Source: Antedon mediterranea (taxonomy: Eukaryota; Echinodermata; Crinoidea; Comatulida; Antedonidae). From it: a DNA stretch of 64,000 nucleotides. This document shows, in pieces, positions 2,613 through 58,211 of the stretch. The position numbers and the translations under genes were made by a program. The notes beneath the pieces are model-generated. The model was given only the letters and a program-made list of their open reading frames with translations. It was not told where the DNA came from and made no database searches. Numbering within the stretch: the stretch's first letter is position 1; every line of letters starts with the position of its first letter. The stretch is from NCBI RefSeq assembly GCF_964355755.1, contig NC_092678.1, positions 2,069,922 through 2,133,921 of the forward strand, read 5' to 3'.

Positions 2613-5600
2613 CTTAAAGAATGTCTTAAATTGCTTTGAGTCTAAAGTCCTAAGTCCGTTAATAAATTCCTGAAACAATACAAAAGGTATATTGTAATTT
2701 AATTTTGTAAAGAATATAGCTTAGCTTAAAATAAACACAGTGATCTTTTTTTGTATTTTTTCTTCATGGTTGTACTGAAAATGGACTAGATTTTTGTTAA
2801 ATACATTTCTTTGATAAATTAAATTCATAACGTAACTAGAAGGACACTCAGAGAGCGCAAACCTCCGCCTAGGCATATGAAATTTAATGACAGCTATGAA
2901 ACATCCTTTAAAATCTTATGAAAATCGGGCAATAACTTTTTGAGTAATCCTGCTAACAAATATAGGTAATAATATAGTTAAGACAGTAATATTATAAATG
3001 TTAACACTATGGTACAGTACGATTTAACTATTTTTTACCTCTAAAAAAGGACAGTAGGCCTAGATATATATCTAAAGTGTCACTTGAAACCAGCCACCGT
3101 CAATTTTTATTACATAAGTCACATAATATATGTTGACTATAGGTCAAAGTCCTCTATTTGTATAGCAATCAATTCTCAACAAAACCAGACAAGCTTATTT
3201 GTTCAGATTAAAATTTACATTTTATTCTTCAAATAGACTTATTTTGGGAGCGTTGACTTACATTTAATATTGAACTTACTACAATTTTATCATTATGCAA
3301 AATGACGGGAAGAAATTTTTGCTGTAAGAAGATCAACAGGCTTTCTTCCTCTGAGATTTTCAACGTTGTAAGCAAAGATGCTGCTTCATTCAGAGCCTAA
3401 AAGTAAATTAAATATTGTTTATAAACTTAAAAAAATATCGTAATTGTGAAAAATTTTAATTGCATTTGAAACAAATGATAATCTAACAAGTTAATTATTT
3501 TATCTTTAGTGGTAAAAGATTTGTTGATAATTTGTTTAGTTAGTCTGTGTCAAAGAAAATTTTTAAACTAACATTTTCAAACATGAGCCATATAAAGACA
3601 CATACAAACTTTATATACAATATTGCACTCTCAGTAATTAAGACTTCAATAAAATATTTATTGAATATCATGTGACACACAATCCTCCAATCAAATAACA
3701 AGAATCTACTATATGTGTTATAGAAAATAATTGATAAAAATGAGCTTAAATTATGTTAAAACCTTTTCTTCTTGCTTCTGTCTATATTTTATTAAATTAG
3801 AAATTCATTTTATTGTGGGTGGTTGTGGTTACAGTTATTATAAAAATCAATATAATATTATATTGATAATTATAGCTCCGCCTAAATTTAAATGGATTCT
3901 GAGTAAATATTATTGTTGATTAATCAATAGGCAAAACAATAACACAATGTGGGTGTTATTATACATAGTCATCATTACTGTGCAATCTGTACAATAGTGG
4001 GCTGAATGATTTTGCCATTAGACTTGTCAGTTTGATCCACACCCACATCACATATGAGTGAGCCAGTGAAATTTGATTATACAATAGCACTTCTGAAATA
4101 TCATCTTAAAAATAGGAAATCGGAAAAAAGCCACCCCTGTAAAAAGCCACCATTGTAAAAAGCCACCCAACAATGGACTATACCATTGTAAAGTGGGAGT
4201 GCTGGACAATCAATTTTTATTTAATTGTGTTATTGTGAATAGCAATTTGGGTGTAGGTGTTATTTAGAAACAATATCAAAGCTAATCAAAGGGATGCCTA
4301 CACTTTTCATGTTACCTCTTCCAAATGCCACTGCCAAAACATCAAACACTTCCTACTTAGTTAAGATTCATAATACATGTTATGCCATTGTAATGTTAAG
4401 GCACGTTATCCAAATACAAATCATTTCAAAATGGAGTTCATTACAAATAATAAGGGAGGTCGCAAATTATGCTATGATGGTTATCTTTATACTAAACGTA
4501 AGTCTAACAGAAGTTCGATAATTTGGGAGTGTTCTTCACATAGAAAGTTTGCTTGCAAAGGTGTACTACGGACAGACATCGATATGGCCGAAGTGCAGTA
4601 TGTATCGGAACACAATCATGCAGTTAACATCATGAAGGCTCATGCAAAGAAAGCAAGACATAGTATTATGGATAAAGGCACAACTTGTAGAGCAACTCCA
4701 GCTCAGATAGTCATTGATGAGATGGCCAAACAACCGCTCAATGTTCGTGTTACTATGACTTGTGCAAAAAGTCTAAAAAGAAACATCAGAATCAAAAGAA
4801 GTAAAAGTCATCCTGGTCAGCCACAATCGCTGGAAGACCTAGTCATTGATGGTGAATGGATGAAAACTGTTGATGACAGAGACTTTCTAATCCATGATGC
4901 TATCATTGGTAATAATGACCGTGTCACAGTTTTTGCAACTTCAGATGGTTTGCGTCACCTATGCAATTCAACAACCTGGTTTATGGATGGAACATTTAAA
5001 ACCAGCCCAAAACTCTATAAGCAATTGTATGTGATTCGCGTTGAGTTAGAAGACAATTCGATAACAACTGTATATGTGCTACTTGCATCAAAATTGCAAG
5101 AACATTACAAACAATTTCTTACTGCCATTGTTGATCAATGTAGACTACTAGGTTATGTACCATCTGTGGAATGGTAGATGGTCTCGCTTTCCTGCCTCCA
5201 GATAAGGTATGTTATCTTTACAATATATTTTATTTATATTTATTTGTTTAATTTCCACCTTCCGTTCACATAGAATTATGCATTTCAAGATGGTGATTTT
5301 TTACTTGTTCTTTATAATTTTACTGCTTTAATAATTGATTTAATAACTTTTTTCTATCTAATTGTTCTACAAGCTATGTTGTCATGTCCCTTTATTTGAT
5401 TTCTTTTATCAATTTAATTTGAACATTTATTCGTACTGTAGCACCATAACTTTAAAACATAAAAATGACTCTTAGGCCTACATGATTTCAAATTAAGAAT
5501 TATCTGGAACATTGATCATTCTACTTTACTCATAAATAATCTTTGTTTTATCTAGGTCAAAGAAGGTATGCAGCACCTACGGGAAAATTCACCTGAAGTA

Positions 5601-8600
5601 TAGTATTAGAGGACTTTCTTGACTACTTTGATACAACTTATGTCAACGGAACATATTCGCATCACATGGCACAACCAGGCAAACAACACATATTCAGAAG
5701 GATCCCACCAATGTTTGACATACACCTATGGAACGTTTATCACCTGACATTAAACTGTGAACCGAGGACAAACAACATTTGTGAATCCTGGAATAGAAAG
5801 CATCTTAACAACACTGGTCATACAAACCCATCTATCTGGTCATCAATCAATGCAGTCAAAAGAGATGAAGCATCTTCAGCGACTTTAATTGAACTTGTAA
5901 GGCGAGGACAACCAGTGCCATCTAAACGCATTACCAAATCAACAGTTAAACACCAGGAGCAACTCTATAACATAATTTCTAAGTACAACCGACAGGCCAA
6001 AGCATTATATCAAACTATGACTGCACTAGGTTATGCCATACGATTAAAGTAACTTGCAACCAATGCCACGTCTTGTATTTAATGTACAGTGTTTGCAAAT
6101 ATAAAACAATTATTATCTCTCAAAAATGTTAAACTGATATAATTAAATATAATTTTGTGTACTTTATTTATTTATTCATTCAATTTAATGTAATGTTTTT
6201 AATTAGACAGAATGTTTATAATATCAATACTTATTCATTGTATAAGGACTATGTGATATTTTTTATTTGGAGATTTCAAATTAAATTGAATACATGTTTA
6301 TTAAAAATTGATTCTTATTTTTGTGTCGTTTGTTTACATTTGTCAGTCCTAAGTATTCCAAATTTATATTTAATAAAATGTTGTACATGTAATTCATGCT
6401 ACATTCCTATTCATAACACACAATTAAATACAAGTTGATTACATAGCACCCCCATTTTGAAATGGTATAGTCCATTGTTGGGTGGCTTTTAACAGTGGTG
6501 GCTTTTTACAGGGGTGGCTTTTTTCCTACTTTCTAAAAATAAACTATCGATATCTTTTTTTACAATATTGTCTGAGAAAACATTGACTTGCCAATAAGCA
6601 CCAATGATTGAAATCCAAAACTTAAGTATGCTTGTCCATTGTTTATTGAATGTACTGCAGACATTTAGGGTTTCAATTCAGACAATAATAGCACAGATTT
6701 CATTTTTGCTCTATGGATATTGTTTCAATTTTCAAATTTTTTTTCTCCAGAAAGATTTATTTGATTACCAATCATATGTAATGTAAATGTTTCTGATGTC
6801 ACTTACCACAATGTTTGGTAAGGTATGAATGAACATTTTACCCCATTTATGAATAATGTTAAGCTATAGCCTAATAAGGCAGAAATCATTTTTGTAAAAG
6901 TCACCAAGAGTTTTATTGTACTGTACTACAGTATTACGAAAAAATAAATAATTGGAAGCTATGTAATATTTCTAAAAAATCAAGGTTCGAACTACTTTTA
7001 TATCCAAATAAAGGACAGTACTATTAATAGTCAACGATTTCTATAGTTTATCAATACAAGGAAATGACACTAAAGAACACCATATAAGGTTTTATAATAT
7101 TGAAAGAGCTCTGATGCCTTGAAATGTATAAGGAACTTCTTGGTATAATAATAATATTATACAGACAAAAATATATTACTCAACATGGACTATAAACAAC
7201 TGCATGGAGCTGATGAACATTCAAATATTGAAGGAAACTTCCTGGTGATTTAGGTATGTAAATTCATAGAGCCAACTGAACAGGGAAAACACCACATTTA
7301 TTTAAATATAGAAAAACAAATGAACATAATAAAAGAAATCCTGTTTATAATTATAATGAATACAATCTTTTATAATGATAATAAATTCTATACAGGTATC
7401 ATGTATCCTGTTCCATATTATGCTAGCTATATGCATTTTTGTTTATTTATCATAGTAGTGCACACACATATCACAAACAAATGTCAACAGGATCTTCTTT
7501 TTTATAATTCCTAAAATCCTAGAAAATATTTGAAAACCATGTTTTATAATTTCTATTAAAGTACAAAGAAAACTAAAACAGGATAAAGAATTGTATTGAG
7601 GTAATAAATAGTACTATCAATTATTGCTTTGCAAACAAGAAATAAAATCTGTACTTTAGTACAATCTGGGATTACTATTCCAGGTAGTATTGTTAACATT
7701 AGGCGCAGGAGCCCCGGATAGCGTTACGAAGTCGTTAACTCTGTCAGCCCATGGTCAGCCCAACTAATGTGTTTTTCCCAAGGACAATGTATCAATAACT
7801 AAACTTTGTCACCACCCATAAGTGTGCTGTTCATTTCCTATTGACCAATGAACACCAATGTAACTGGACCTGAGTTTCTTGCTATTCGACCTTGGGTGCA
7901 AATTATACAATTAATAGTAGAGCAGTTAATGACATGAGCTGTGCATTTTATTACCAAAGCATGAAACTTGGCACAAAGTTTCTATAATGTATATAGATTC
8001 AAAATATCGGGGGGTGCCAAGTGTCCAACGTCCGGTATGGCGGCCATCTTGATTTCAAAATGGCCACCATAAAAACAAAAAATGTTCATATCTTGGCAAC
8101 TATACACATTAGAGACTTAATTCTGGTCTCAAATTGTTCACAAACTATATATTTCTATTTGCTCTAATGAAAATTTTCGTCAAAAAATGACCGGAAATGA
8201 CGTTTCTTTCAGTTTGACCTTTGACCTCGTATTTGTATATCTCTGTAACTACTGGTCATTTTCAATCGATTTTGGTGTCATTTTGTTCAGAATAAATACA
8301 TTTATATTTGTAGTAATGAAACATTTTCACATAAAATGACCGGAAATACAATTTATGACCTTTGACATTTAATTATTGATTTTTAATTATGTGAATATAC
8401 TGTATGTGGTTTTTGGTGGTCTTAAATGCACCTAATTTTGAACTAAACTTTGACCTAATAGGCGTAATTATATTAAATGATTAATGGACTTAAATTGTAT
8501 ATAGTACATAAAATTGGTAAACATTGTGCTTTTGGTGGTACCATTAGTTCAATGATGTTGGCACCTTCTGATTCGCTAAAAGTTTTAATAGTTTGACAGA

Positions 8601-11600
8601 GGAAATAACATACATGTTATGGAATACCGTAAAACCTCGAAAAGGTGATAGTATGAGCTTCTTTTCGAGATAGACTGTATTTGAATGTCAAATGAATAGT
8701 ATGATGATCGTGTTTATATCAATATATTATTAATGACCTTACAAAGAACCCTTTATATTTCAACAATCAAGCCTCAGTTATTCTACAATTTATTGTTTTC
8801 CAAGTGGCTGGTAGGCTTATTTTGATTGCATCTTCTTTTTGTAGGCCTATGCTTCCTCGGTAATATGGTCCTACCCCTCCTTCTTTGTCTGTAGATGGTC
8901 TTATACCCCATTCTTTGTCTGTGGATGGTCTTATACCCCCTTCCTTGTCTGTGGATAGTCTTATACCCGCTTCTTTGTCTGTGGATGGTCTTATACCCGC
9001 TTCTTTGTCTGTGGATGGTCTTATACCCCCTTCTTTGTCTGTGGATGGTCTTATACCCGCTTCTTTGTCTGTGGATGGTCTTTACACCCCTTTCTTTGTA
9101 TGTAGATGGTCTTACACCCCTTCTTTGTCTGTGGATGGTCCTACACTCCCTTCTTTGTCTGTGGATAGTCCTACACCCCCTTCTTTGTCTGTGGATAGTC
9201 CTACACCCCCTTCTTTGTCTGTGGATGGTCTTATACCCCCTTCTTTGTCTGTGGATGGTCTTGAACCCCTTTCTTTGTCTGTGGACGGTCTTATACCCCC
9301 TTTTTTGTCTGTTGATGGTATTAAACCCCTTTCTTTGTCTGTTGATGGTATTACACCCCTTTCTATGTGTGTGGATGGTTTTACACACCTTCTTTGTCTG
9401 TGGATGGTCTTACACCTCCTTCTTTCTCTGTGGATGGTCTTATACCCCCTTCTTTGTCTGTGGATGGTCTTATACCCCCTTCTTTGTCTGTAGATGGTCT
9501 TATACCCCCTTCTTTGTCTGTGGATGGTCTTATACCCGCTTCTTTGTCTGTGGATGGTCTTTACACCCCTTTCTTTGTATGTAGATGGTCTTACACCCCT
9601 TCTTTGTCTGTGGATGGTCCTACACTCCCTTCTTTGTCTGTGGATAGTCCTACACCCCCTTCTTTGTCTGTGGATAGTCCTACACCCCCTTCTTTGTCTG
9701 TGGATGGTCTTATACCCCCTTCTTTGTCTGTGGATGGTCTTGAACCCCTTTCTTTGTCTGTGGACGGTCTTATACCCCCTTTTTTGTCTGTTGATGGTAT
9801 TAAACCCCTTTCTTTGTCTGTTGATGGTATTACACCCCTTTCTATGTGTGTGGATGGTTTTACACACCTTCTTTGTCTGTGGATGGTCTTACACCTCCTT
9901 CTTTCTCTGTGGATGGTCTTATACCCCCTTCTTTGTCTGTGGATGGTCTTATACCCCCTTCTTTGTCTGTAGATGGTCTTATAATCCCTTCTTTGTGTGT
10001 GGATGGTCTTACACCCCCTTCTTTGTCTGTGGGTGGTCTTACATCCCCTTCTTTGTCTGTGGATTGTCCGACACCCCCTTCTTTGTCTGTGGATGGTCCT
10101 ACATCACCTTCTTTGTCTGTGGATGGTCTTATACCCCTTCTTTGTCTGTAAGTGGTCCTATACCCTTTCTTTGTCAGTGGGTGGTCTTACACCCCCTTCT
10201 TTGTCTGTGGACGGTCCTACACCCCCTTCTTTATCTGTGGACGGTCTTACACCCCTTTCTTTGTCTGTGGACGGTCTTACACCCCTTCTGTGCCTGTGGA
10301 CGGTCTTATATCCCCTTCCTTGTCTGTTGATGGTATTACACCCCTTTCTTTGTCTGTTGATGGTCTTACACCTCCTTCTTTGTCTGTGGATGGTCCTTAC
10401 ACCCCCTTCTTTGTCTGTAGATGGCCTTATACCCCTTTCTTTGTCTGTGGATAGTCTTACACCCCCTTCTTTGTCTGTGGATGGTCTTACGCCCTTCTTT
10501 GTCTGTGGATAGTCTTATACCCCCTTCTTTGTCTGTGGATGGTCTTATACCCCCCTTCTTTGTCTGTGATGGTCTTATACCCCCTTTTTTGTCTGTGGAT
10601 GGTCTTACATCCCCTTCTTTGTCTGGACCCACTACTTTGATTGATTAAATCAGACATTGTTTCTTGTATGATTAGGAGACCAAGACCTTGAAAGTGAAAG
10701 TCCACAAGTGGATGCCTAAATAGGTCTTGTACAGAACAGTATATTGTAGGTCCATGTCACTAATTTGAGAATTACTTGAATAATTATATTGAGATGTCTT
10801 TTACGAATTGATTTGGTTCGGATTTTGCTAAAAAACCAATGAGTAGAGAAAATCGAGGAAAAGGATTCAGATGGTTTACAGCAAAGGCCCATTACCATAA
10901 AAATGGAGTACATTTTTTTAGATGCAACGAAAATGAACAAGAATTATCTGAGTTTCTGACTAATGAAAGTAGGTCTACTGCACAAATGCAGGATAAGTTT
11001 GTAGTAAGTACTTTGAAAGACGGTATTCTCTTAACTCATGAAAATGAAAACTTTCCGAACTTGTCTCATATGCAACATCAAAGAGGCCAACGAAAGAATG
11101 CTACTTTACATCAAAAATATTTCCAAATGGCATCTAACAATTCAATTCAACTTTTATTTCAGACAATTGTCCATATGGTATAATACAGTGCAAAAAAAAA
11201 AGATGATGGAGAGAGGACCAAAACTTTTATCTAACGATTGACACATCACAGTTTAGCAAACAAGTCGGCATAGATGAGCTCAGTGATTGCTGTTTCTCAG
11301 TGATCTGTCATACTTTACGCCTATCCTATCACATCAAAAGTCAAAAATTCAGAATAATAATTCCTGGTCATTTTTGCAGTGTCAGTTATTTCGTTAAAAA
11401 AAATTAGGTGCATTTATACCAATGTAAACCACATACAGTATGTTCACATATTATATATGTCAAAGGTTATAAATTGTATTTCCAGTCATTTTATGTGAAA
11501 ATGTTTCATTACTACAAATATAAATGTCTCTATGCTGAACAAAATGACACCAAAATCGATTGAAAATGATCAGTAGTTACTGAGATATACAGATAAGAGG

Positions 11601-40400: not shown

Positions 40401-43400
40401 TTAGTGAAGCGTATCTCCTTAGTATTGTGTCACATGTACATTACTTACCAATCAGTGTCCTTATAATACCACCACCAGATGCTCCCATGCTGAAGCGGCC
40501 ATTATTCAAAATGTTCAACGCTAACTTAAAGCCACTGCCGGGCTCTCCAATCATGTTCTCAACTGGAACGGGACAATTTTCAAAATGAACCTCACACGCT
40601 GAAAATAGAAAGTATAAATAAAATATGCATAAAATCAGACCTCCCAACACAAGAGTTCCAGAGATTTCATGTGATTTTCCATCTCCTGTTACATTGTAAT
40701 TTCTCCCAATATGACACACTTAGAGCACATAAAGCATGTGGCATACCTGTTTTTAATAGATGCTGATGCCCAAGATTGTTTTAATAGTGCATTCTATGTT
40801 TGGATGCAACAAAATTGTAGCACCCTCTATGGTTTGGTCTCCATGGGAACTCTATGTTTTGTTAAGTAGTTTCAACTACAAGACTTCACTTACTATTGGA
40901 TCCTCGAATACCCAGTTTGTCCTCAGGTTTCCCACTTGTTACGCCGCCAAACTTTCTTTCAACTATAAAGGCCGATATTTTGTCTTTCTTTCCACCCTAA
41001 ATAAGTAATTGACCATCATTTTAATTATTGAAAACAATAAATAAATAACTACATTTGGATTGAAATGATTAACTACATTTGGAAGAACTACTAGAGGTTA
41101 CTCATTATAAAGATATAAATAAATAATAAAGTTTATGAATATTTTTATGATTTATTTACATTATGATTATTTATTTATTTATTTCGTTTTCTTTTAGTAG
41201 GGTAGCCCTCTCAGTAATAAAATAACTGCTCTTCCGAGGGGCCCTACGGCACATTTAAACAAAATTTGAAAACAACTTAAACTAAACTTAAACTAAAACT
41301 TAAACTAAAACTAAACTTCAATGCATGTTCTCATTATTATTATACTTTTATACCATATTTAAATATATTTCACTGGAACCATCCTAGACCACCGGCAACA
41401 ATAAATGAATCTTAACAAGTGATTTAAAACGGTTATAATTGTTTTGTTTTCTTAATTCATAAGGTAGGCCATTCCAGAGTGAACTTCCATAATAAACAAA
41501 ACTACGTTTGTATATTTCGAGGTTACATCTGGGCAAATACAACAGATTATTTTCATAGTTTCTGGTTTGAATATTGTGTACACTACTAATATATTGCAAA
41601 ACATCACATAAGTATGAAGGTACAGATTCTTGTAAACATCTAAATATTGTACAAATTGTATGATATTCAATTCTTGTCTTAATTGTTAGCCAACCTAAAT
41701 CATAATGCATTTGTCTAACAGGAGTTCGAATATCAGCACCTAGTATTAATCGTGCAGCTCTATTTTGTACCCTTTGCAATTTTAAAATATTGGCGTTTGA
41801 ACCAGTACCCCAGACTGTTGAACAATAGTCAATATGTGATAAAAATAGAGCATTGTATAATCTTTTAATAATTTTAGGAGATGTAAAACTTTTCAATCTA
41901 TAAAATAGATGTAGAATTTTTGATAGTTTTGCACATATAGAATCAATATGTACTTTCCATGAGAGTTGTTCATCAAATGTAAGTCCCAAATATTTAAACG
42001 TTTCAACTTTCTCAATCGGAATATTATCAAAAATTACTGTTTCATCTGTTGTTTTATTAACACGTGCATGAGTACCAAAAAGCATGTATTTGGTTTTATC
42101 AATGTTTAGAGTTAATTTATGTTTATCTAACCATTGTTTTACATTTTCCAACTGTTCAGTTAAAACTGTTGTAAGCTCTTCATTTGATTTACATGCATAA
42201 AAAAGCGCAGTGTCGTCTGCATAGAGGACTGTTTTACAAATCCCATCAACACTATCATGTAAGTCATTTATGTATAAAATAAACAACAAAGGGCCAAGAA
42301 TTGAGCCTTGTGGTACCCCATAGTTGACATTTAAAATTTCAGATTTTTTTCCATTAAAATTAACAAATTGTTTGCGATTTTTTAAATAATTACTGAACAA
42401 TGCAAGCTCAGTGTTTATCATTCCAAAGGTGCATAATTTACGTAATAAAATATCGTGGTCTACCGTATCAAACGCCTTTTTTAGGTCAAGAAAAATTGCT
42501 CCAGTTACCAAGCCATTATCAATATTTTTATATATATAATTGCATACATCTATCAGTGTAGTAGAAGTTGAATGTAACGACCTAAAACCAGATTATGTTT
42601 TATATACCTTATTACCCGCTACTTCTTCTCTTGCAAATACAGTGAACACATCAGCTATGCCGCCATTAGAAATCCAAATCTGCAGAAAAAAGTCAGTCAC
42701 AGTTCCCATGAGAATTTTTGTCGAACTGGGCCATAATATTACAAACAAAACTATTAAAAAAAAAAAATGTCCTCATCTGGAATTTAACTAAGGTCTCAGC
42801 AATAGAAAGCTACATACAGTACATAACCATAGTACCAAACTTAAAATTCACTTCCATAGTGTAACTGAACCTAAATATCTTACTAAGGCTAAACATTTTT
42901 AAAAAATCCCCTTTTTTTGAAAGGGTAGGGGTACAAAATTTATAGTCAAATTTCACGCCACAAACAACAACATATTTGTTTTTAATTAAAACAAAATAAC
43001 AATAGTTTATACAAAATATGTTTTTCTAAATCACCCAAAATAGGACTCGAACCTGGGACTCCACTATTGGAAGGTGAATGCAGACCTATTACACCACATT
43101 TATATTTCCTAGTTTTTAGTGCAATTAAATGTGTTCACACACGGTAATAAGACAGTAATTTAAGAAAAAAAAAGTTATAGTAGAGAAATTATAGAGTAGG
43201 CGGTGGGATGCACACCTCTAATGAAAGTTATTTTTACCTTGCTTCCATTCAGTAGATAAGTCTTGCCATCTGGACTTAATGTTGCTCTTGTTCTTAATGA
43301 TCCTGCATCGCTACCACTGTTAAAAAGAATAAATATTGAGAGTGTGAGGAGGTGTTCAAATTATTCAAAACTGAATCCTAGCATCTTTGGAACCTTATGT

Positions 43401-47668: not shown

Positions 47669-48968
47669 TCACTGTGTCGCCAGAAACGCATAAGTGTCTA
47701 TATCAAGTCCATGGTCCTTAGCTTTATCAGCGAGTACTCGAACAGTTGCATTGTCAGATTCACGATTTTTCCATTTTACCAAACAACTAAATATCTGGTC
47801 CCTTGGTGTGTTAGCATTGCCACTCGCATGAAAGATTTCATTCTCTTTCAATCCAAGACTCCTAATGAAGCTTTTCCAATCTGCGCCCATATTCCCAGCA
47901 AACGTGTTCAGCTGCAATTCAGAAACTCGTTCATCAGGAAAATTTCTATCTTGAACTGAAGTGGAGTAAGGTAAATCTCTATTCATTGGTGTTGGTGAAT
48001 CTGTATTATCTCGACTCGACACTAAAAATTAAAAAAAATTATATTAATTGTTAAAAAGAGCTGTGAATTGTAACATAACTGTAACATTCTGATCTCCTCT
48101 GAGTTTCTTTAGCTTACAACTTATTGGATGTGGGTATAAATGTATAGGCCATTCAGCCGTATTGCCCAGAATGGTGTTGACATTCTTTTTCTGCCAGTGA
48201 TTATCTCGTCACTGGTAGAAATCGCATCAACAACATCTGCTGGTAGGTTATTCCAGTACTCGATAGCTGAACAAATTTAGACCTTTTTGCATAGATGGTG
48301 TGTATAGCTTAAATGTATGACTTTGATGTTTGAAAACTGCAACAGCATGTGGAATTACTAAGAACCATATATTTAGTCTGGCAACACAATTTGTTTACTT
48401 TGTTGTTGGGTTTAATGTGAATAATCATATACAAGCGCTTTGTGGTGAAAGTTAGTTGAACTCCTCTATTAGGGCTCCCTCTTCTAAGACGACGTCCCTT
48501 AAAAGGGGATCAGTTATTGAGTCCCAAAGATGTCCCCTTAACAGGTGATCCTTTCCTGTATTATTACCTAAATATTAAATTATTATTTTCCAATATAGCA
48601 GGAAGGGGAGTGTGGGCGTGGGGGTTAGTTCTTATGTACAGAATCGACAAACTGTATAAAATACCTTGATTTGGAAACTTCATTGGTTGTGGATCCTGAA
48701 GTTTTTTATTTACAAAATGATAGAGCGGGTCTTCCATTTCTTTCAGCGCTTTTAGAAAACTTGGAAATGCATTTGGCCCTTTTGTCGGCAAAGTGTCGAG
48801 AAAATACTCATTCTTTTTCATTTTTGTTGGTTTGGATTCGATGATCTCAGAATCTTCACTTGTCATTACACTATCCTGTATCATGTAGTTTATCAACATA
48901 TCTGTTGGTAAATCTGACACTAACCGCACTCTGTTACTAAGTAGAAGATATTTGTGCTGATCGTCCAT
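47669..48968 (-). CDS. CARD plus death-domain adaptor, CRADD/RAIDD-like, 2 exons
   Basis: Exon 1 is 48968-48665 and exon 2 is 48021-47669, phase 1, giving 218 residues (human CRADD 199). Residues 1-90 form a CARD: a MDDQHKYLLLSNRVRLVSDL helix, then YFLDTLPTKGPNAFPSFLKA, the pattern of CRADD (LDILPSRGPKAF in human). Residues about 130-217 form a death domain (FAGNMGADWKSFIRSLGL, LVKWKNRESDNATVRVLADK). CRADD links caspase-2 through CARD-CARD contact and PIDD through death domains in the PIDDosome. The domain order matches, but independent CARD-DD fusions exist in invertebrates, so orthology is an inference. The intron carries a LINE remnant. Confidence 0.8.
48143..48270 (-). mobile_element. Non-LTR retrotransposon C-terminal remnant
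   Basis: The minus strand reads AIEYWNNLPADVVDAISTSD, then FWAIRLNGLY, typical of the very end of LINE reverse-transcriptase ORFs. It lies in the intron of the CARD/death-domain gene. Confidence 0.6.
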
Positions 48969-50829
48969 TATGAGAATGTTTTTTTGAAATCTGTAAAAGC
49001 AATTTAAAAAGAAAACTCTAGTATTAGTAAAAGTTCATCAGTTAATATTATTATTCTTTAGGCCTAGTAGTAGGCTAGATTTGTTTAGCTATGGCTAGCT
49101 AGTACTACTATCCTACTATACTACCTACCAGATTTAGGGCTTACATTTGTTTAAAATAGAATATTCGATTCATACAATTTCACTCAGACCAGAAGCACTC
49201 CACTGCCTTTTTACTTTATTTTTTTAGTGATTAAAACTCGTAAGAGAGGGGCCTACCTAGCCCTGCTTTGTAGCGGCGCTACAACTGTGGTTTCTTATTA
49301 TTTAGGTGGCCTAGCTATGCTAAAACAAATTTAAAAGGCTAGGCCTAGTGTCGTGGACAGTCAGTGGTGTACAGAGTGTCACTGTGTCAGTGACGTGTGT
49401 AAGCCCCTCCCCAACAATTGACAAACAAAAAGGTTAGCCTAGAGGCTAGCTAAGCTTAAATTAGGTTAGGCTAGGACCAGGCCTAATAGGCTAGCTAAGT
49501 AAGCTGTCTACTATTCATGCCTAGCCTATTCAACTTCTATGATGAGGTTAATAAGTACTAACTTTTATATATCTATAATTAAAAATAAACAAGTTCCTAG
49601 GCCTACTTGGTAGCTAGGCCCAGCTTCCACTCGCGTGTATTACTGCTTTGTTGTGTGAAACGCCGCGGCGATGTCTGTTTAGTCCGCCCCGCCGGTACTT
49701 CTTTCCCCGTCTTTTTCCTTTTTCCAGCTCAGTTCCGACACGTCCACCCCGCCTTCGTTTTTGACGACCAAACAAATAGAGGGCGCATCATATGAGGGGC
49801 CATAGTGGCAAAAATATTCAATAAGCACTCATTTCGTCATATCGACATTGACATAACCATTTTAAGTTGTTTTGCGGCAACAAGGTTGTTACAATTTTCG
49901 CACCTTTCAACTATAAAAGCAAATATTAGTCTAAACCAAATCAGTCTGAGCCCAGATTATTAAATAAAGGCACCTTTTACCACAACGATTTAAACAGAAA
50001 AAAAAATACAACCAGATATTGTGTAGTTTATTCAATAAAAAGTAAACAAATTATTTATTAAAGAATTGGCTGTGGAATCGTTAAAATGATTGTAATGTTT
50101 TAATTTATAGGCCTATGGGATGGGAGAGTTTCCTATCTATGGATAATAGTCATACTTCAAATATGGCCGGCTGACAACATGTCTTGTATGTGGTAGAGTT
50201 GGTATGCAAAACCCCAGAAGATTGTACTCTTCAACGATGGCTGAGAAATAAAAAATGCCGTTGAAAAATACTGATAAAGTAAGCCTCTTCAATTGTGTCC
50301 TTTATTATGAATGCACGAGCCTCGTCATATTACTGGTTTTATAATCTACAGACAATCTTCTTGCCGTCCCTGTCACTAAAAAGGTTTTGGAGACGATACG
50401 TTCTAAACTACGAATAGAATATTTGACCAGGCTCTTCTATAAGTGTATTACTTTAAGAAACACTTAACAATTCACTTGTTTCTGAAGTAGTGCTTTTTAA
50501 AATGCATATCTTATAATATGTAAGCCGAATTTTTGTAGAGTGCTGTTTTGTAGAGTGCTTTGACCTTTCTTTGAAAAGGTGCTTTATAAATAACTGATAT
50601 TGATTCCATCATAATTTCTAGCCATATACAACGTAACTGGCCTAATTGCAACCATTTCGTCTGACCCCATGCCCCGAAAGCTCACAGTCAACAACACCAG
50701 CAAATGAATATTCCATTCGTTGACATGATAAATAATAAATGTTAGGTTATGATTAATAAAATAAATAAAAACAGTTTCCATTCCTGCAATAATACAAAAA
50801 AAACATAGAAAGTTTATACAAAAAATATG
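48969..50829. other. Intergenic region upstream of the CARD/death-domain gene
   Basis: No coding gene supported. It should contain the promoter and 5' UTR of the minus-strand CARD/death-domain gene. The TAGGCCTA palindrome and close variants are especially dense at 49060-49620. A 'gtgctttataaataactgat' interspersed-repeat end is at about 50580. Confidence 0.5.
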
Positions 50830-50915: not shown

Positions 50916-53900
50916 CTATATAGGCCCAGGGAAACAGGCACTATAGTCACAATGGGAACCCCTGAAAATATTAATATTTGAAAACATGAAGATATGACGA
51001 ATATCAAGAAAATAATGTATACAAGTTTAGCGTATTTTTCTATCGGAATTAACTTACCTTTTTGGAAATTCCGCTTTCTCTATCCCTGGGAGATAGAAGG
51101 GATATGATACCGGCTCAGATGGAGGATCACAAGTACAAAATGCACATCCGCCGACTATTTGAACACCGTCATCAGAAATTAACACTTCTTTGGAATTGAA
51201 CGATCTTGCGTAGCAATTACCAACTGTCAAAAAAAGCATAATACTATACATCTCATGCACATTCTGAATTGAAATAACATGACTGTAAGCAATTACGAAT
51301 CTTGATCAAATTTAATGAATATACCTGGAGTTATAAACCAGACATACATATACAAATAAAATTATTATTTATAATAGCAATTTACGTACCTTCACAAATT
51401 GGACATCTACAGAAATCGAAATAAAATGGTTCAACGCATTCGTTGTTCACAAAACAATCGGGTTGTTTGATGCACACTCTTTCATTTTCAGAGCGGATAC
51501 AGAAGCAATCGTTGGCGCATTCTGGGAGATCATCATAAGTTTCTACGATTTGTTCTTCTTCAAACCCATGGCACACGCAGTTAGAGTAGTCGCAGGTGGC
51601 TTTTCTGCCGGAGTAAATCAGTGACAATTGAGGGTAAATGTTCTAGAAATTCGGCATGCAGGACGGTTAAATATCTCTTAGTTATTTGAATACTACTGGA
51701 ACAGAGCCAAATGTATGACTCTGATTGGAAGTAGAACCCCCTCTTTTGTGACGCCCCTATTCAAGGGACACATCTGTTGAAGGGATACTTTTCTATACTG
51801 CGGTCAACACCTTTTCATAGGACACTCTGTCGGGCCCTGTAGGTGTGGTAACTGTAGTTACTGTACTTTATTATTGCTTGCGTTTTTTATAGGTGGATGC
51901 AAGAGAAAGAACCCGGTCAGGGCGCCACTACATAACAAACGACAGCTAGAATTTAAAAACAGCACAATATCGTGGATCTGCCACGGTGTACTTCACCCGC
52001 CAATACTAGGCCAACTACTAAACCAGTACTATACTTCTGGAGTACATGAATGTAGTCGCATTATTTAAAATAAAAACCCTTATACCAAATCCCATACCGT
52101 TTGGGAAGTTCAGGGCGACTGTCGTCATATGTAATTTGTGTGACATAAGGTTCGCATGTACACACTGCGCAGCCAACATCCTGGGGACCGTCGTCTGGTA
52201 TTAAAACTTCTTCATCTTCATAATTTATAGCGTAGCAGTCACTAACTAGAGAATATTAGACAAGAAGAAATATTATTATCGCGTTCATTTAAGAGAGACA
52301 CACCTTGTTTAATGCTTTTGTCTCTACTCGACTTCGTGTCTTGTGCTTCATATATATGTATATTTCTATGTTTTGTAATTATTATTTCATGTCTATTGCC
52401 GAAATGAATAAAAATAAAATAAGTTATATTCGCACGAGAGATGACATCGAAAGCAAAAATAAACGGTACGGGTGATTCACATTTACAATAATGTGTTTCT
52501 GGGTTTTAAAGACATACCTTGATTTTGACAGGACGGACATCCACATTCAATGACTGGGTTGTGACATACGTTGGTGAGCTCACATGGTGGAAAGTTGATG
52601 CACAGTTCATAGGGCCCATTCTCTTTAACACAGAAGCAGCCAAATGTGCATACTGGAAAATCGCTACTAGTTGCCAATACTCTTGACTCTTCATAACCAT
52701 AACATGGACAGTTGGAATAATCACAAGTTGATGTCCTGTTGTTAAAACAGTTTTGTTTTTCATTTTGTAAGTGTCACTAGTCTACACTCCGAGTTTGTCA
52801 GAAAAGTTTTCCGACGTTTGCCAGTGTGGACCAGTTGGCAAACTTCAGCAAACATAGAAAACAAGTTTGCAGAAATCTACACTAGCATACTTTAGTTTGA
52901 AAACAGAAATTCAGTAAACTTTACTATTGTAGACAAGGTTGTAAGCCTACCATAATCTGCAGTAGCAAACATTAATTTGTAAATTTTAGACCAATTGACA
53001 AACTTCAGAAAAATAGTTTGCAAAAAGAAAATAGACAATGCACCTTTTTGAATTGACAAACTATAGTTTGCTGGAGTTTGTCAACTTTCAATCCCTAAAA
53101 GGTAATATGTGCGAATATATAATTGTTTTAATGATGTGAACAATTTGTTTTACTACCTTGGAGGTACGGATCCGCCACCACCAAAAGCAATAAATGGTAT
53201 TGAATGACGGTCACATGTGCACACGGCACATCCAACATCTTGTGGGCCATCGGCGGATATCACAACTTCTTTATTTTCAAATGATTTGGCTAAACAGTCT
53301 CCATCTAAATTATGATAGAAGCAAACGTTATACTATGCTAATTGGTCTATTGCAAATTCGGATCGAGCAACTTTTGAAAGGTAACATTCTCTCTCTATCA
53401 ACATTGAGACAACCAATATTTGTCCATTTAACTAGAAATTCGTTTCTCTGCTCGTGGAGTAGACAGCCACATAAAATATGGAAATAATATCCAGGATCCA
53501 GTAAGATCTAAAAGAGCCTTTTTCTTCCTGCTTACGGTCTTTTTGTCTTGTTTTTAACGATTTCCCTTAAATTCTACATGCTTTGATAAGCCACGTAAAG
53601 TAAAACAATATCTAATTAAGGTACAACACGATCTAAACAGAGTTATTTACCTCCTTCACAGAATGGACAGCCACAGACTTGTGTAGGTTGAAGACACTTG
53701 TTAGTTATTTCGCATGGAGCTGGGTCAACACACAACACAGCATTTGCAGATCGAATGCAGAAACAACCGAACGTACACGCTGGGATATCAGCGCCAGTAT
53801 CGTATACTTGAGACTCATCGTAGCCATGGCACGCACATTGCGAAAAGTCACACGTTGCCTCTCTGACAAACGGAAAAACAAGACGACTAAATCAGTTAAA

Positions 53901-56900
53901 CATTTCGATGACAGAACATTCTTATTTAGCAACACGCTCTAGAGTGTGCAGAAACCAATAAAACAAACAACAAACAAAGATTTAGAAAATCCAACCTTAC
54001 CTCTTTGGCAGTTCTGGTATATTGTAAGGAGGTAGGCCCAATAAAATGGGCGCATCAGGCTCTTGGCACGTGCATACAGCGCATCCTACATGTTGAGGAC
54101 CATCATCCGATATCAAAACCTCTTCTCCATTTTCTAAGTGGGCAACACAATTGCCATCTGTGATCGAATAAAAAAAAATGGTATAGAATAAAGTTTAAAA
54201 CTGTCTGAATTTGAAAAAAAAAAGTATTTATACAAAATTGAAAAAGGATCTTAAGTGTGAAACCTACCTTCACAGTATGGGCATCCACAGAAACTTGGTT
54301 CTGGGTCCTGACACTTGTTACTTACAGCACATGGAGATCCGTCTATACATAGAGTTTTATCTTCAGAACGGATGCAGAAACATCCAAATGTGCATTCTGG
54401 GATATCAGCAATTGTGTCGTATATTCGTTCGTCATCAACTCCTTGGCAGATGCATTGAGAGTAGTCACACGTGGCTCTTCTGTATAAATATGATAAAGCA
54501 ACAATTTAGAGAACAATAAAATTATGACAACTAATAATGAAGTTTATGAAAATAAATACTCGTCAGAATTTTCCTATAGGCATACAGTTGGAAAGATCTC
54601 ATTCTCTATCCTATTAGTTAGAATGCAATTTAAAAACAGACCAATTATATCAATAAACCACTCTTAAAATTATATAGCGAACTCGGTTCTGTTTTCTAAG
54701 ATGGAAAATATAAAAGAGCTTGTGAATATTGTACGCCCAGTTAAAAAAAAATATATTAGAGAAAACTTAGTAAAATCCCTTTAAATTTGGATAAATCTAT
54801 AATTAAATACATGTGTTGTAAGAAATCAAGAGATAGTATTATCATTACCTTGGTGAAACGTCTGGAATGACTGTTCCCGGGGTAAAGAATGGAAAGACTA
54901 TTGGTGGAATAGCCGCCTCACACGTGCACACTGCGCAGTCAACTTGCTGAGAACCTCTATCGGATATCAGTACTTCCTCTCCTTCGTACGTTTTGGCAAA
55001 ACAGTCTCCATCTGTATCGACATAGATGTAAGTGAATAATCGTAAATATTATTCGAGTGTTTTAAAGATATTATTCTTTAAAAATTTCGTGATAGAGTTA
55101 TTACATTTTCAGACAAAATCTTGTCGAAATCTAAAATAAAAGAAATATCAATTTGTTGGAAAAAAATATTGAAGTGGAAATAGAAAAAAAAGTACCTTCA
55201 CAGACTGGACATCCACAGGCACTCTCTTCTGGATGCTGGCATATATTACTAACAAGACAAGGAGCAGGGTCTATACATAAGGTTTGGTCTTCAGACCGGA
55301 TGCAGAAACAACCAAATGTGCATTTTGGGATATCATTAATTGTTTCATACACAAGTTCTTCATCAAACCCTTGACAGACACATCGAGAGTAGTCACATGT
55401 CGCTTTTCTGTTTTAAAAAAATACAGAAACAATAAGATCATTATTAGACATTAGTATTTGGAATGATCTCTCTTTACAAGAACAGTAAAACTGCCTCAAT
55501 TGTTTTCCTATTAAATATGAATTTTCCAATGTGAATGTCCTCTTTAACAGCTTAGTAAACCTTATTGGTAGTGATCTTCATTTTTATAAGTCTTCTAAAT
55601 TTCTGTCTCCACTATCAAACTAGTTTTACAAAAAAAATTTAATGTGCCCAATTACAAATTTCGTGATATGCCCAAATAGGGTAGTGATATGACATCATCA
55701 TGTCCATATATCGGCACACATCACACTTTTTTGTCACATAAACTTTGATAGTGTAAACAGAGCTTAAGTTGTTTTAAACACTAAATATGGTATATACTGT
55801 AAATAATATGCTAGAGAATCAAGACGTGATATTTAATTATTACCTTGGTGGTACTGCTGGAATTGCTATTCCCGTTATAAAGATTGGTAAGTCTATTGGT
55901 GCAGAAGCCGCCTCGCACGTGCAAACTGCGCAATCAAGTTGCTGAGGACCGTTATCTGATATCAAAACTTCTTCTCCTTCATACGTTTTAGCAAAACAAT
56001 CTCCATCTATATCAAGATAAGTGTAGCATTCTTAGGCACGATCGTATCTAAACCTCAATGTCAAGTTTTGTTTAATTACAACAATAAAAAAAACAATTAT
56101 TATTGGAAATAAAATGTTGAAAAAACTTAAGGCAAAAATACCTTCACAGACTGGACATCCACAGGCACCCTCTTCTGGATGTTGACATATATTACTAACA
56201 AGACAAGGAGCAGGGTCTATACATAAGGTTTGGTCTTCAGACCGGATGCAGAAACAACCAAATGTGCATTCTGGTATATCAGCAATTTTGTCATATATAA
56301 GTGCTTCATCAAATCCGTTACAAGCACACCGCGAGTAATCACACGTCGCTTTTCTGAGAACAAAAATAGAGCACCAATAATTAATTTTATAACAATTTTA
56401 TCTAAATTCATCAGAGAAGAGTCTACATAGACTACTGGTGGTAGTAATTGAAGAATTTAAGCTCCAGTATATCTTCGCATCTGTAATCTTTTAAATTATT
56501 TACTTTCGAAGAATGTAAACACTATACATGTTACCTTTTCGGTAGTGGTGGAAGTAGGTCTAATATGGTTGCTGAAAAAAATGGTAATACTATTGGTTGG
56601 GAAGGTGCGTCGCACGTGCACACTGCGCATCCCACTTGCTGAGGACCGTTATCGGATATTAATACGTCTTTTTCTTCAAATGATTTGGCAAAACAATCTC
56701 CTTCTGTTAGGGTTAAAGAACATAAATTTTAGTTGATCATGATGAACTTTACTGCAATCACTGTTTTTTCTAACCAAAAATTAATTGAAGATTGGTCTTC
56801 AACAATTCAATGTTTCTGTTTCTGTTATTTATGTTTTCTATTAATTGCGGCCTAAGTTTGTTTACGGAAATTGGAAACTTTATCTATATAGGCACTAACC

Positions 56901-58211
56901 ATCACAGATGGGACATCCGCATACGTGATGATCTGGTTTGAAACATTTGTTGTCCACTTTACAAACGGCTGGGTCTATACATAACGTGGCACTTTCAGAT
57001 CGAATGCAGAAACAACCTAATGTGCACTGTGGAATATCAGCTACGGTTTCAAACACTTGTTCTGAAGGGTGACCATGGCAGGGGCATTGGGAGTAATCAC
57101 ATGTTGCTTTCCTGTACACAAATACACAATAACTTAACTGTATGAACTTTCCGATTTAGGACTAGTCAACTTTAAAGCCTAGTCTACACTAGCAAACTAT
57201 ATCAAATCTTCGAGTTTGATCCAGTTTTGCAAAGTTAAAAAAAGTAAACTTCTGCAAGCTTGCAGTTTCCCGAACTTTGGTTTACACTAGCAAAATTCTT
57301 CTTGCAAAACTTCGAGCTTGTAAACAAACGTTTTCAGCGTAAACTTCTGCAGATTTGTTTTCTGCAGTTTGTCGAAGTTTAAACGTTGGAAAACTCTTCT
57401 TGCCAAATTAGGACTATGCAAACAAGGCTTAACTTTAGTACTATATTAGTATTAAGACTTTATCAACTTAATCTAAACCAAACCTTCTTTGAGGAGATTC
57501 CTTGAGTAGGCCTAAGAATAATTTGAATCCGCATCCGGGGCACGGCTCTGCTGGCTCTGGTAGATTACAAGTACACACGGCACACCCAACAGCTTCCGCA
57601 GATCCTCCGCGGATTATCACTTCTCTACCGTCAGGATGTTCAGCAGCGCAATCATTTCCTAAATATAGTAAGCAAAAATTTTAAATATTTACCTAAGATA
57701 TTTCTAATAGATCTATAACAAATTTTTTTCTAATGCTTTTTTTTTATCTAAAAAAAATCTATTTTAAATTTTATATGATTGTTAAAACTTGTGTAGGCCT
57801 ACTGATGTATGATGTATATAGGCTAATTGGAATTTATTTGATGTAGGCCTACTTTATTTCGATTTGAATAAAGTGAAAACAATGTTGGAAACATAAAAAA
57901 AAAAGTATGACATAACTTCACTTACGGCCTCCGCAATCAGGACAATCATGACAATTAAATGTCGGATCTGCGCATGTCACAGAAGCCCCATCACAACTTT
58001 TTTCAACACATATTGTACTGGATGTTCTAACTCGACTTGGTTTATAAGTAAATGTGCCATGGTAGTAGGTGTACCCACCAACGCAAAAACAACCAAACGT
58101 ACAATCTGGAATATCTTCTTCTGCCTCGTAGTCTAATGGTGAACATTTGAGCGCGGCAGTCGCCCTGTCCAGAGGAACTAGAAGAACAACAAACAACAGA
58201 AAGCGATGCAT
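50916..58211 (-). CDS. Secreted cysteine-rich protein of seven tandem two-exon modules, 17 exons
   Basis: Unrecognised gene of 1037 residues. Exons in order: 58211-57926, 57658-57484, 57111-56900, 56703-56535, 56353-56142, 56006-55844, 55407-55196, 55011-54849, 54479-54268, 54157-54001, 53862-53651, 53304-53157, 52735-52518, 52245-52098, 51604-51390, 51223-51058, 50961-50916. Exon 1 encodes a signal peptide (MHRFLLFVVLLVPLDRATA) and a half module. Then A and B exons alternate. A (about 71 residues, 12 Cys): ATCDYSxCxC, DIPxCTFGCFCIRSE, LCIDPxxC, CGCPxCEG. B (about 50-57 residues, 4 Cys): GDCFAKSFEGEEVLISDNGP, then CAVCTC and a proline-rich end. A exons run phase 2 to 1 and B exons 1 to 2, so pairs duplicate in frame. 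Exon 17 starts another A module but stops after CDYSACFPGPI. CxxCxC followed by CDYSxC recalls von Willebrand C domains; membership is inference. No transmembrane segment. Confidence 0.88.
52777..53092. mobile_element. MITE family C, copy 1
   Basis: A string of 'agtctacact', 'caaactt', 'agtttgtc' and 'tctacactagcata' motifs in both orientations, shared with 57176-57428. Inverted termini are likely but eroded. It lies in intron 12 of the cysteine-rich gene. Confidence 0.5.
55595..55767. mobile_element. MITE family B, copy 5
   Basis: Left 'ctccactatcaaactagttt', right 'aactttgatagtgtaaacag'; internal 'gtagtgatatgacatcatca' is shared with the copy at 17456. It lies in intron 6 of the cysteine-rich gene. 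Confidence 0.8.
57176..57428. mobile_element. MITE family C, copy 2
   Basis: Begins 'cctagtctacactagcaaac' and contains 'aaacttctgca' twice and 'tttacactagcaaaattctt'. Related to 52777-53092. It lies in intron 2 of the cysteine-rich gene. Confidence 0.5.

Follow-up and report, generated by a model that had tools for sequence, protein, structure and literature searches.

Gene model and exon structure of the array

The 64,000-nucleotide stretch of Antedon mediterranea DNA analysed here (the window) carries on its minus strand, from position 58211 to 50916, a gene of 17 exons whose borders are all GT-AG and whose phase is unbroken throughout (Table 1). The exon chain was obtained by enumerating GT-AG borders under the required phases and keeping the consistent set; where an exon allowed alternative border pairs, as several did, the pair continuing the repeat alignment was chosen. 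Once spliced, the gene comprises 3114 bases and encodes 1037 residues with 130 cysteines in total, a single terminal stop and none internal, whilst its first exon opens with a hydrophobic stretch, MHRFLLFVVLLVPLDRATA, interpretable as a signal peptide. The 17-exon, phase-continuous model and the 1037-residue secreted product given in a preliminary description of this DNA were thus reproduced, as was its account of two alternating exon types: A exons with 12 cysteines apiece (A1–A7, phase 2 to 1) and B exons with four apiece (B2–B8, phase 1 to 2), an arrangement that allows a pair to be duplicated without a frameshift. Exon 1 (A0) has ten cysteines and B1 has six.

Table 1 Exons of the cysteine-rich array gene, with positions in the window. 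D10 and D6 are the ten- and six-cysteine domains proposed in the text, C1–C6 the cysteines of D6.
Exon	Positions	Strand	Phase	Content
Exon 1 (A0)	57926..58211	-	0 to 1	Start codon, putative signal peptide MHRFLLFVVLLVPLDRATA, D10 no. 1
Exon 2 (B1)	57484..57658	-	1 to 2	D6 no. 1 C1–C4 and linker with two extra Cys
Exon 3 (A1)	56900..57111	-	2 to 1	CDYSQC (end of D6 no. 1) and D10 no. 2
Exon 4 (B2)	56535..56703	-		D6 no. 2 C1–C4 and proline-rich linker
Exon 5 (A2)	56142..56353	-		CDYSRC and D10 no. 3; 87% identity with exon 7
Exon 6 (B3)	55844..56006	-		D6 no. 3 C1–C4 and linker; 75% identity with exon 8
Exon 7 (A3)	55196..55407	-		CDYSRC and D10 no. 4 (this D10 was the structure-model query)
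Exon 8 (B4)	54849..55011	-		D6 no. 4 C1–C4 and linker
Exon 9 (A4)	54268..54479	-		CDYSQC and D10 no. 5
Exon 10 (B5)	54001..54157	-		D6 no. 5 C1–C4 and linker
Exon 11 (A5)	53651..53862	-		CDFSQC and D10 no. 6
Exon 12 (B6)	53157..53304	-		D6 no. 6 C1–C4 and linker
Exon 13 (A6)	52518..52735	-		CDYSNC and D10 no. 7
Exon 14 (B7)	52098..52245	-		D6 no. 7 C1–C4 and linker
Exon 15 (A7)	51390..51604	-		CDYSNC and D10 no. 8
Exon 16 (B8)	51058..51223	-		D6 no. 8 C1–C4 and linker
Exon 17	50916..50961	-		GSHCDYSACFPGPI and stop; gives C5–C6 of D6 no. 8

The window holds further features besides the array. Adjoining it, also on the minus strand (47672-49034), are exons for a CARD (E 2e-17) and a Death domain (E 3e-12), which look like part of an apoptosis-adaptor-like gene, and a 402-codon open frame at 41387-42592 (minus strand) reads as a retroelement reverse transcriptase, with a YADD motif recognised by eye. 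On the plus strand, a FLYWCH zinc finger with a weak MULE transposase match (4374-6049) indicates a transposon-derived gene. A minisatellite-like tract at 8770-10645 is open in several frames, giving PSTDKEGGIR and TIHRQRRGYK repeats. As a control on the placement of the genome, a tektin exon matched the sea urchin chain of PDB entry 8snb at 96 of 123 positions, against 66 of 121 for the best mammalian tektin-4, in keeping with an echinoderm or a close relative, perhaps a hemichordate; a COX1 search aimed at the mitochondrial code gave no match.

The repeat unit is a pair of domains out of register with the exon pair

The later A exons start with CDYSxC (CDFSQC in A5), followed by ten cysteines in the order C..CxxxCxC..C..C..C..CxC..C. 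Exon A0, which has nothing upstream of it, holds exactly those ten, and at the other end of the gene exon 17 encodes CDYSAC, then just FPGPI, then the stop. From the cysteine count of A0 and the content of the last exon we infer that the four cysteines of a B exon belong with the CDYSxC of the exon that follows, together forming one six-cysteine domain (D6) behind a ten-cysteine domain (D10). The array would on this evidence consist of eight D10–D6 units, a reading to which we give a probability of about 0.9. The bookkeeping of cysteines is exact, as 8 × 16 gives 128, and the two extra cysteines in B1 bring the total to 130. A phase-2 intron splits D6 ahead of its final two cysteines, those of CDYSxC. 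Between C4 and C5 of D6 lies a variable, often proline-rich linker of ~19–28 residues, in which mean identity is 34% as against 62% in the C1–C4 core, and all eight linkers terminate in Arg before CDYSxC. Disulfide pairing, as judged solely from cysteine counts, probably takes place within D10 and within D6.

The preliminary description had counted seven A–B modules; its tandem exon pair with symmetric phases holds, whilst the number becomes eight D10–D6 units in the light of the cysteine counts, the terminal exon and the second gene described below.

A second gene with the same layout

A second gene with these modules lies on the same chromosome, 23.6 Mb off, at C9:25712065-25716931, and comprises four D10–D6 units. 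Its first exons (C9:25.713-25.715 Mb) came from a genome search with a single A exon, the remainder from a profile of the window exons. The order is signal peptide, A0, B1, A1, B2, A2, B3, A3, B4 and last exon, in the same phases as the window gene, and the last exon encodes LASCDYNIC followed by a stop, the same short CDYxxC type that closes the window gene. Two of its A exons are enlarged, A1 by a collagen-like insertion and A3 by a long GGS repeat, both placed between the last cysteine of D6 and D10; A3 is without the first four D10 cysteines, the GGS repeat standing in for the first half of the domain. As both insertions fall between D6 and D10, they provide independent support for the boundary between the two. 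Genome searches with the modules of either gene gave these two genes only, among the best candidates, which are the ones that such searches score, so that weak members may escape them.

The strand opposite to the second gene carries, at a distance of some 6 kb (C9:25705946-25710495, plus strand), a secreted frame with a D10-like domain (E 0.0016 to a profile of the window exons alone). The frame begins CLSGKRFYSPGQ and is VWC-like by eye. Two FAMeT (PF12248) exons, with E-values of 5e-15 and 4e-7, lie downstream of it on the same strand, and the frame and the two exons are possibly one gene.

Selection and growth of the array

Comparisons between exon copies (Nei-Gojobori) gave Ka/Ks values of 0.14–0.51 where Ks was finite, and each of the 12 exon pairs compared showed more synonymous than non-synonymous change, which argues that the reading frame is kept by purifying selection. 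Taken with the recurrence of the layout in the second gene, the excess of synonymous change also argues against the array being a chance arrangement, and the window gene is, as far as its sequence can tell, very probably a real protein-coding gene for which the gene model and the D10–D6 reading should hold.

Exons 5/7 and 6/8 had been singled out in the preliminary description as far more alike than the rest and taken as a sign of continuing tandem growth. The likeness was confirmed, in that A2/A3 and B3/B4 are the closest pairs in their own sets (87% and 75% identity, respectively), but the growth was not. A2/A3 have a Ks of 0.26 and a Ka of 0.07, whilst the remaining A pairs tested have a Ks of at least 0.8 or are saturated; among the B exons, B3/B4 have a Ks of 0.48 and a Ka of 0.15, and B2/B3 a Ks of 0.50. 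In a comparison of 42 intron pairs, the sole pair above all 100 shuffles was the A2–B3 intron with the A3–B4 intron (36 vs. 29), an excess that is modest at 100 shuffles given 42 pairs, yet it is still the pair that duplication of an A2–B3 block predicts. The flanking B–A introns showed no likeness. The Ks values of A2/A3 and B3/B4, those of the other A pairs and the single alike intron pair fit one older duplication of an A–B exon pair, not ongoing growth. With phase 2 at both ends of an A–B pair, duplication leaves the frame intact even though the intron is within D6, and as the cut falls at one constant place in D6, a copy restores whole folding units as well.

Relation of D10 and D6 to catalogued domains

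The preliminary description had called the protein apparently undescribed, and no match of the module to a described domain was found in Pfam, NCBIfam or PDB sequences. The Pfam searches covered the A exons, isolated D10 and D6 and the whole protein, and gave no family match, the one CUB match being at chance level; profile searches of the PDB returned chance matches or none, and a literature search found no description of D10/D6-like modules. The same description had joined the CxxCxC of a B exon across the splice site to the CDYSxC of the next A exon and likened the result to a VWC fold. That the two halves are one domain is supported by the last exons of both genes, whilst the likeness to VWC did not extend to the profiles, whose scores were no better than those of shuffled columns. 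Profiles of 27 VWC and nine TILa domains from the same genome were compared by hhalign with those of D10 (12 sequences) and D6 (11 sequences). D10 against VWC scored 10.4, where the shuffled mean was 10.6 and the 95% point 15.5, and D6 against VWC scored 14.05, where the shuffled 95% point was 14.4; VWC against TILa, the positive control, reached 89.6% probability. An HMMER (hmmsearch) comparison with VWC agreed in not rising above background, and the hhalign scores of D10 and D6 against the TILa (PF12714) profile were inside the shuffled range. At E ≤ 0.1 the genome yielded 92 VWC exons and 60 TILa exons, none of them array exons, and array exons were likewise absent from its 128 matches to TIL (PF01826).

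Neither a Pfam match nor profile similarity places D10 or D6 in the VWC family (PF00093), and the resemblance appears to be limited to cysteine order. D10 has its ten cysteines in VWC order but with CxxxCxC for CxxCxC and CxC for CC, and mostly ends in CxCPxC; D6 has six only. In common with VWC arrays (chordin, kielin/chordin-like proteins, Sfp6), the window gene encodes secreted tandem cysteine-rich domains, with the order of D10 and the first half of D6 (C..CxxCxC) as further likenesses; unlike them, it alternates D10 with a six-cysteine domain, in a unit out of step with the exon pair.

For the complete A2 exon, in an alignment with its A counterparts, AlphaFold gave a mean pLDDT of 48.5. 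For the A3 D10 aligned with the other seven D10, the best model reached 74.4 (pTM 0.52) and the other four models 50–57. The rise is supportive of the predicted D10 boundary, in a comparison whose two queries differ in lead sequence and trimming. Foldseek found no match to the D10 model, itself moderately confident, in the PDB or among viral models.

These results bear on whether D10 and D6 might be VWC domains that have diverged strongly, with shortening in D6, in what would be an unrecognised VWC-array protein. This is a possible reading, to which we give well under an even chance. It is consistent with the ten cysteines of D10, with hhalign aligning D10 end-to-end with VWC when a low-confidence alignment is kept, and with the VWC-like look of the D10-like frame by the second gene; yet both domains score within the shuffled null where the VWC–TILa control is recovered clearly, D10 departs from VWC in its CxxxCxC and CxC, and its model found no Foldseek match.

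TIL–TILa (TIL-E) pairs of VWD-containing proteins have 10 + 6 cysteines per pair and occur in tandem arrays, a layout that the D10–D6 array shares. In TIL, however, most cysteines are ahead of CxxGCxC, and the array is without VWD or C8 domains. A TIL-E identity of the whole unit was ruled out by cysteine order and the TILa profile scores, and a TIL identity of D10 by its having just one cysteine upstream of CxxxCxC. The searches also located a tandem array of more than 30 TIL–TILa units at C3:38093000-38154000, spaced at ~1.7 kb and with many identical scores, which probably represents a large mucin-like gene that has expanded very recently, unless the assembly is in error there.

Composition and possible function

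The mature chain of 1017 aa contains 12.8% Cys and 8.9% Pro, no Trp and no N-glycosylation motif, and has a net charge of about -98 and a calculated pI of 4.2. A series of small domains, each cross-linked internally and connected to the next by a linker, would make a tough chain, presumably of extended shape, and with its acidic surface this chain could contribute to extracellular or secreted material, be it matrix, adhesive or an acidic scaffold for divalent ions. Our best guess is that the products of both genes form tough, disulfide-bonded extracellular material. A structural or adhesive extracellular role for the window gene's protein, suggested on general grounds by composition and architecture and by analogy with footprint proteins, has in our estimate slightly less than an even chance.

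The analogy is with sea star footprint proteins. In the published account (PMC9382459), the footprint proteins whose production is confined to type 1 adhesive gland cells are without exception rich in cysteine; Sfp6 is a 2602-aa footprint protein with repeated VWC domains, several footprint proteins carry FAMeT domains, and Sfp8 has WAP and antistasin domains. Like Sfp1–Sfp8, many of which are cysteine-rich, the window gene's product is secreted and rich in cysteine, and FAMeT exons adjoin the second gene, a link by composition and domain type, not by sequence; D10/D6-like modules are not named in the passages of that account drawn on here (PMC9382459). An adhesive role may thus be called plausible on circumstantial grounds. 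The acidic charge suits matrix or ion binding no less than adhesion. Tandem cysteine-rich domains are likewise compatible with inhibiting proteases or binding ligands.

As a multi-headed protease inhibitor, the protein would present in each unit a variable proline-rich loop with an Arg before CDYSxC, much as tandem pacifastin- or antistasin-type inhibitors do. We consider this unlikely, although several features point towards it: Arg ends eight of eight linkers, the linkers are far more variable than the core (34% vs. 62% identity), and the six-cysteine order of D6 (C..CxxCxC..C..C) is one that we take to recall pacifastin-type inhibitors. WAP and antistasin domains are also present in footprint protein Sfp8 (PMC9382459). 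The Arg codon, however, spans the splice junction, mostly as AG followed across it by G or A, so that donor-site sequence alone could preserve the residue; the linkers are far longer than canonical inhibitor loops, and no Pfam inhibitor family matched the exons, D10, D6 or the whole protein.

A regulator of growth factors, chordin- or kielin/chordin-like and binding BMP-type ligands through VWC-like domains, is still less probable. Such proteins do have VWC arrays, and D10 has the VWC ten-cysteine order, mostly with the CxCPxC end, but D10 and D6 match VWC neither in Pfam nor by profile comparison, separate canonical VWC arrays of the same genome suit that role better, and the charge of about -98 and, in the second gene, the inserted GGS repeat and collagen-like stretch fit a material better than a ligand trap. 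An immune or defence protein, in which variable linkers and repeat expansion would serve recognition of microbes or predators, seems about equally improbable: tandem growth and variable linkers would be expected of it, but the modules were found in just two genes among the best candidates scored, unlike expanded immune families, the exon copies are under purifying selection, and the domain searches found no known immune domains.

Going beyond the structural or adhesive role itself, D10 and D6 could be a pair of new disulfide-rich domains that occur in echinoderms, or a subset of them, and nowhere else. Copying of a phase-2 exon pair with its outer introns inside D6 would have spread the paired domains, which would scaffold secreted adhesive or mineral-associated material. 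In this full form the proposal is speculative and we think it rather doubtful.

Significance

Secreted cysteine-rich repeat arrays are common, and the domains of this one go unrecognised by Pfam. The array is a clear case in which the exon pair that duplicates and the unit that folds are offset from one another, and the copies are nonetheless in-frame and complete, owing to every junction cutting D6 at the identical point. A domain model of D10 and D6 is usable for searching other echinoderms, and the two genes, with their clear boundaries, make a small set on which an adhesive or matrix role in echinoderms may be tested.
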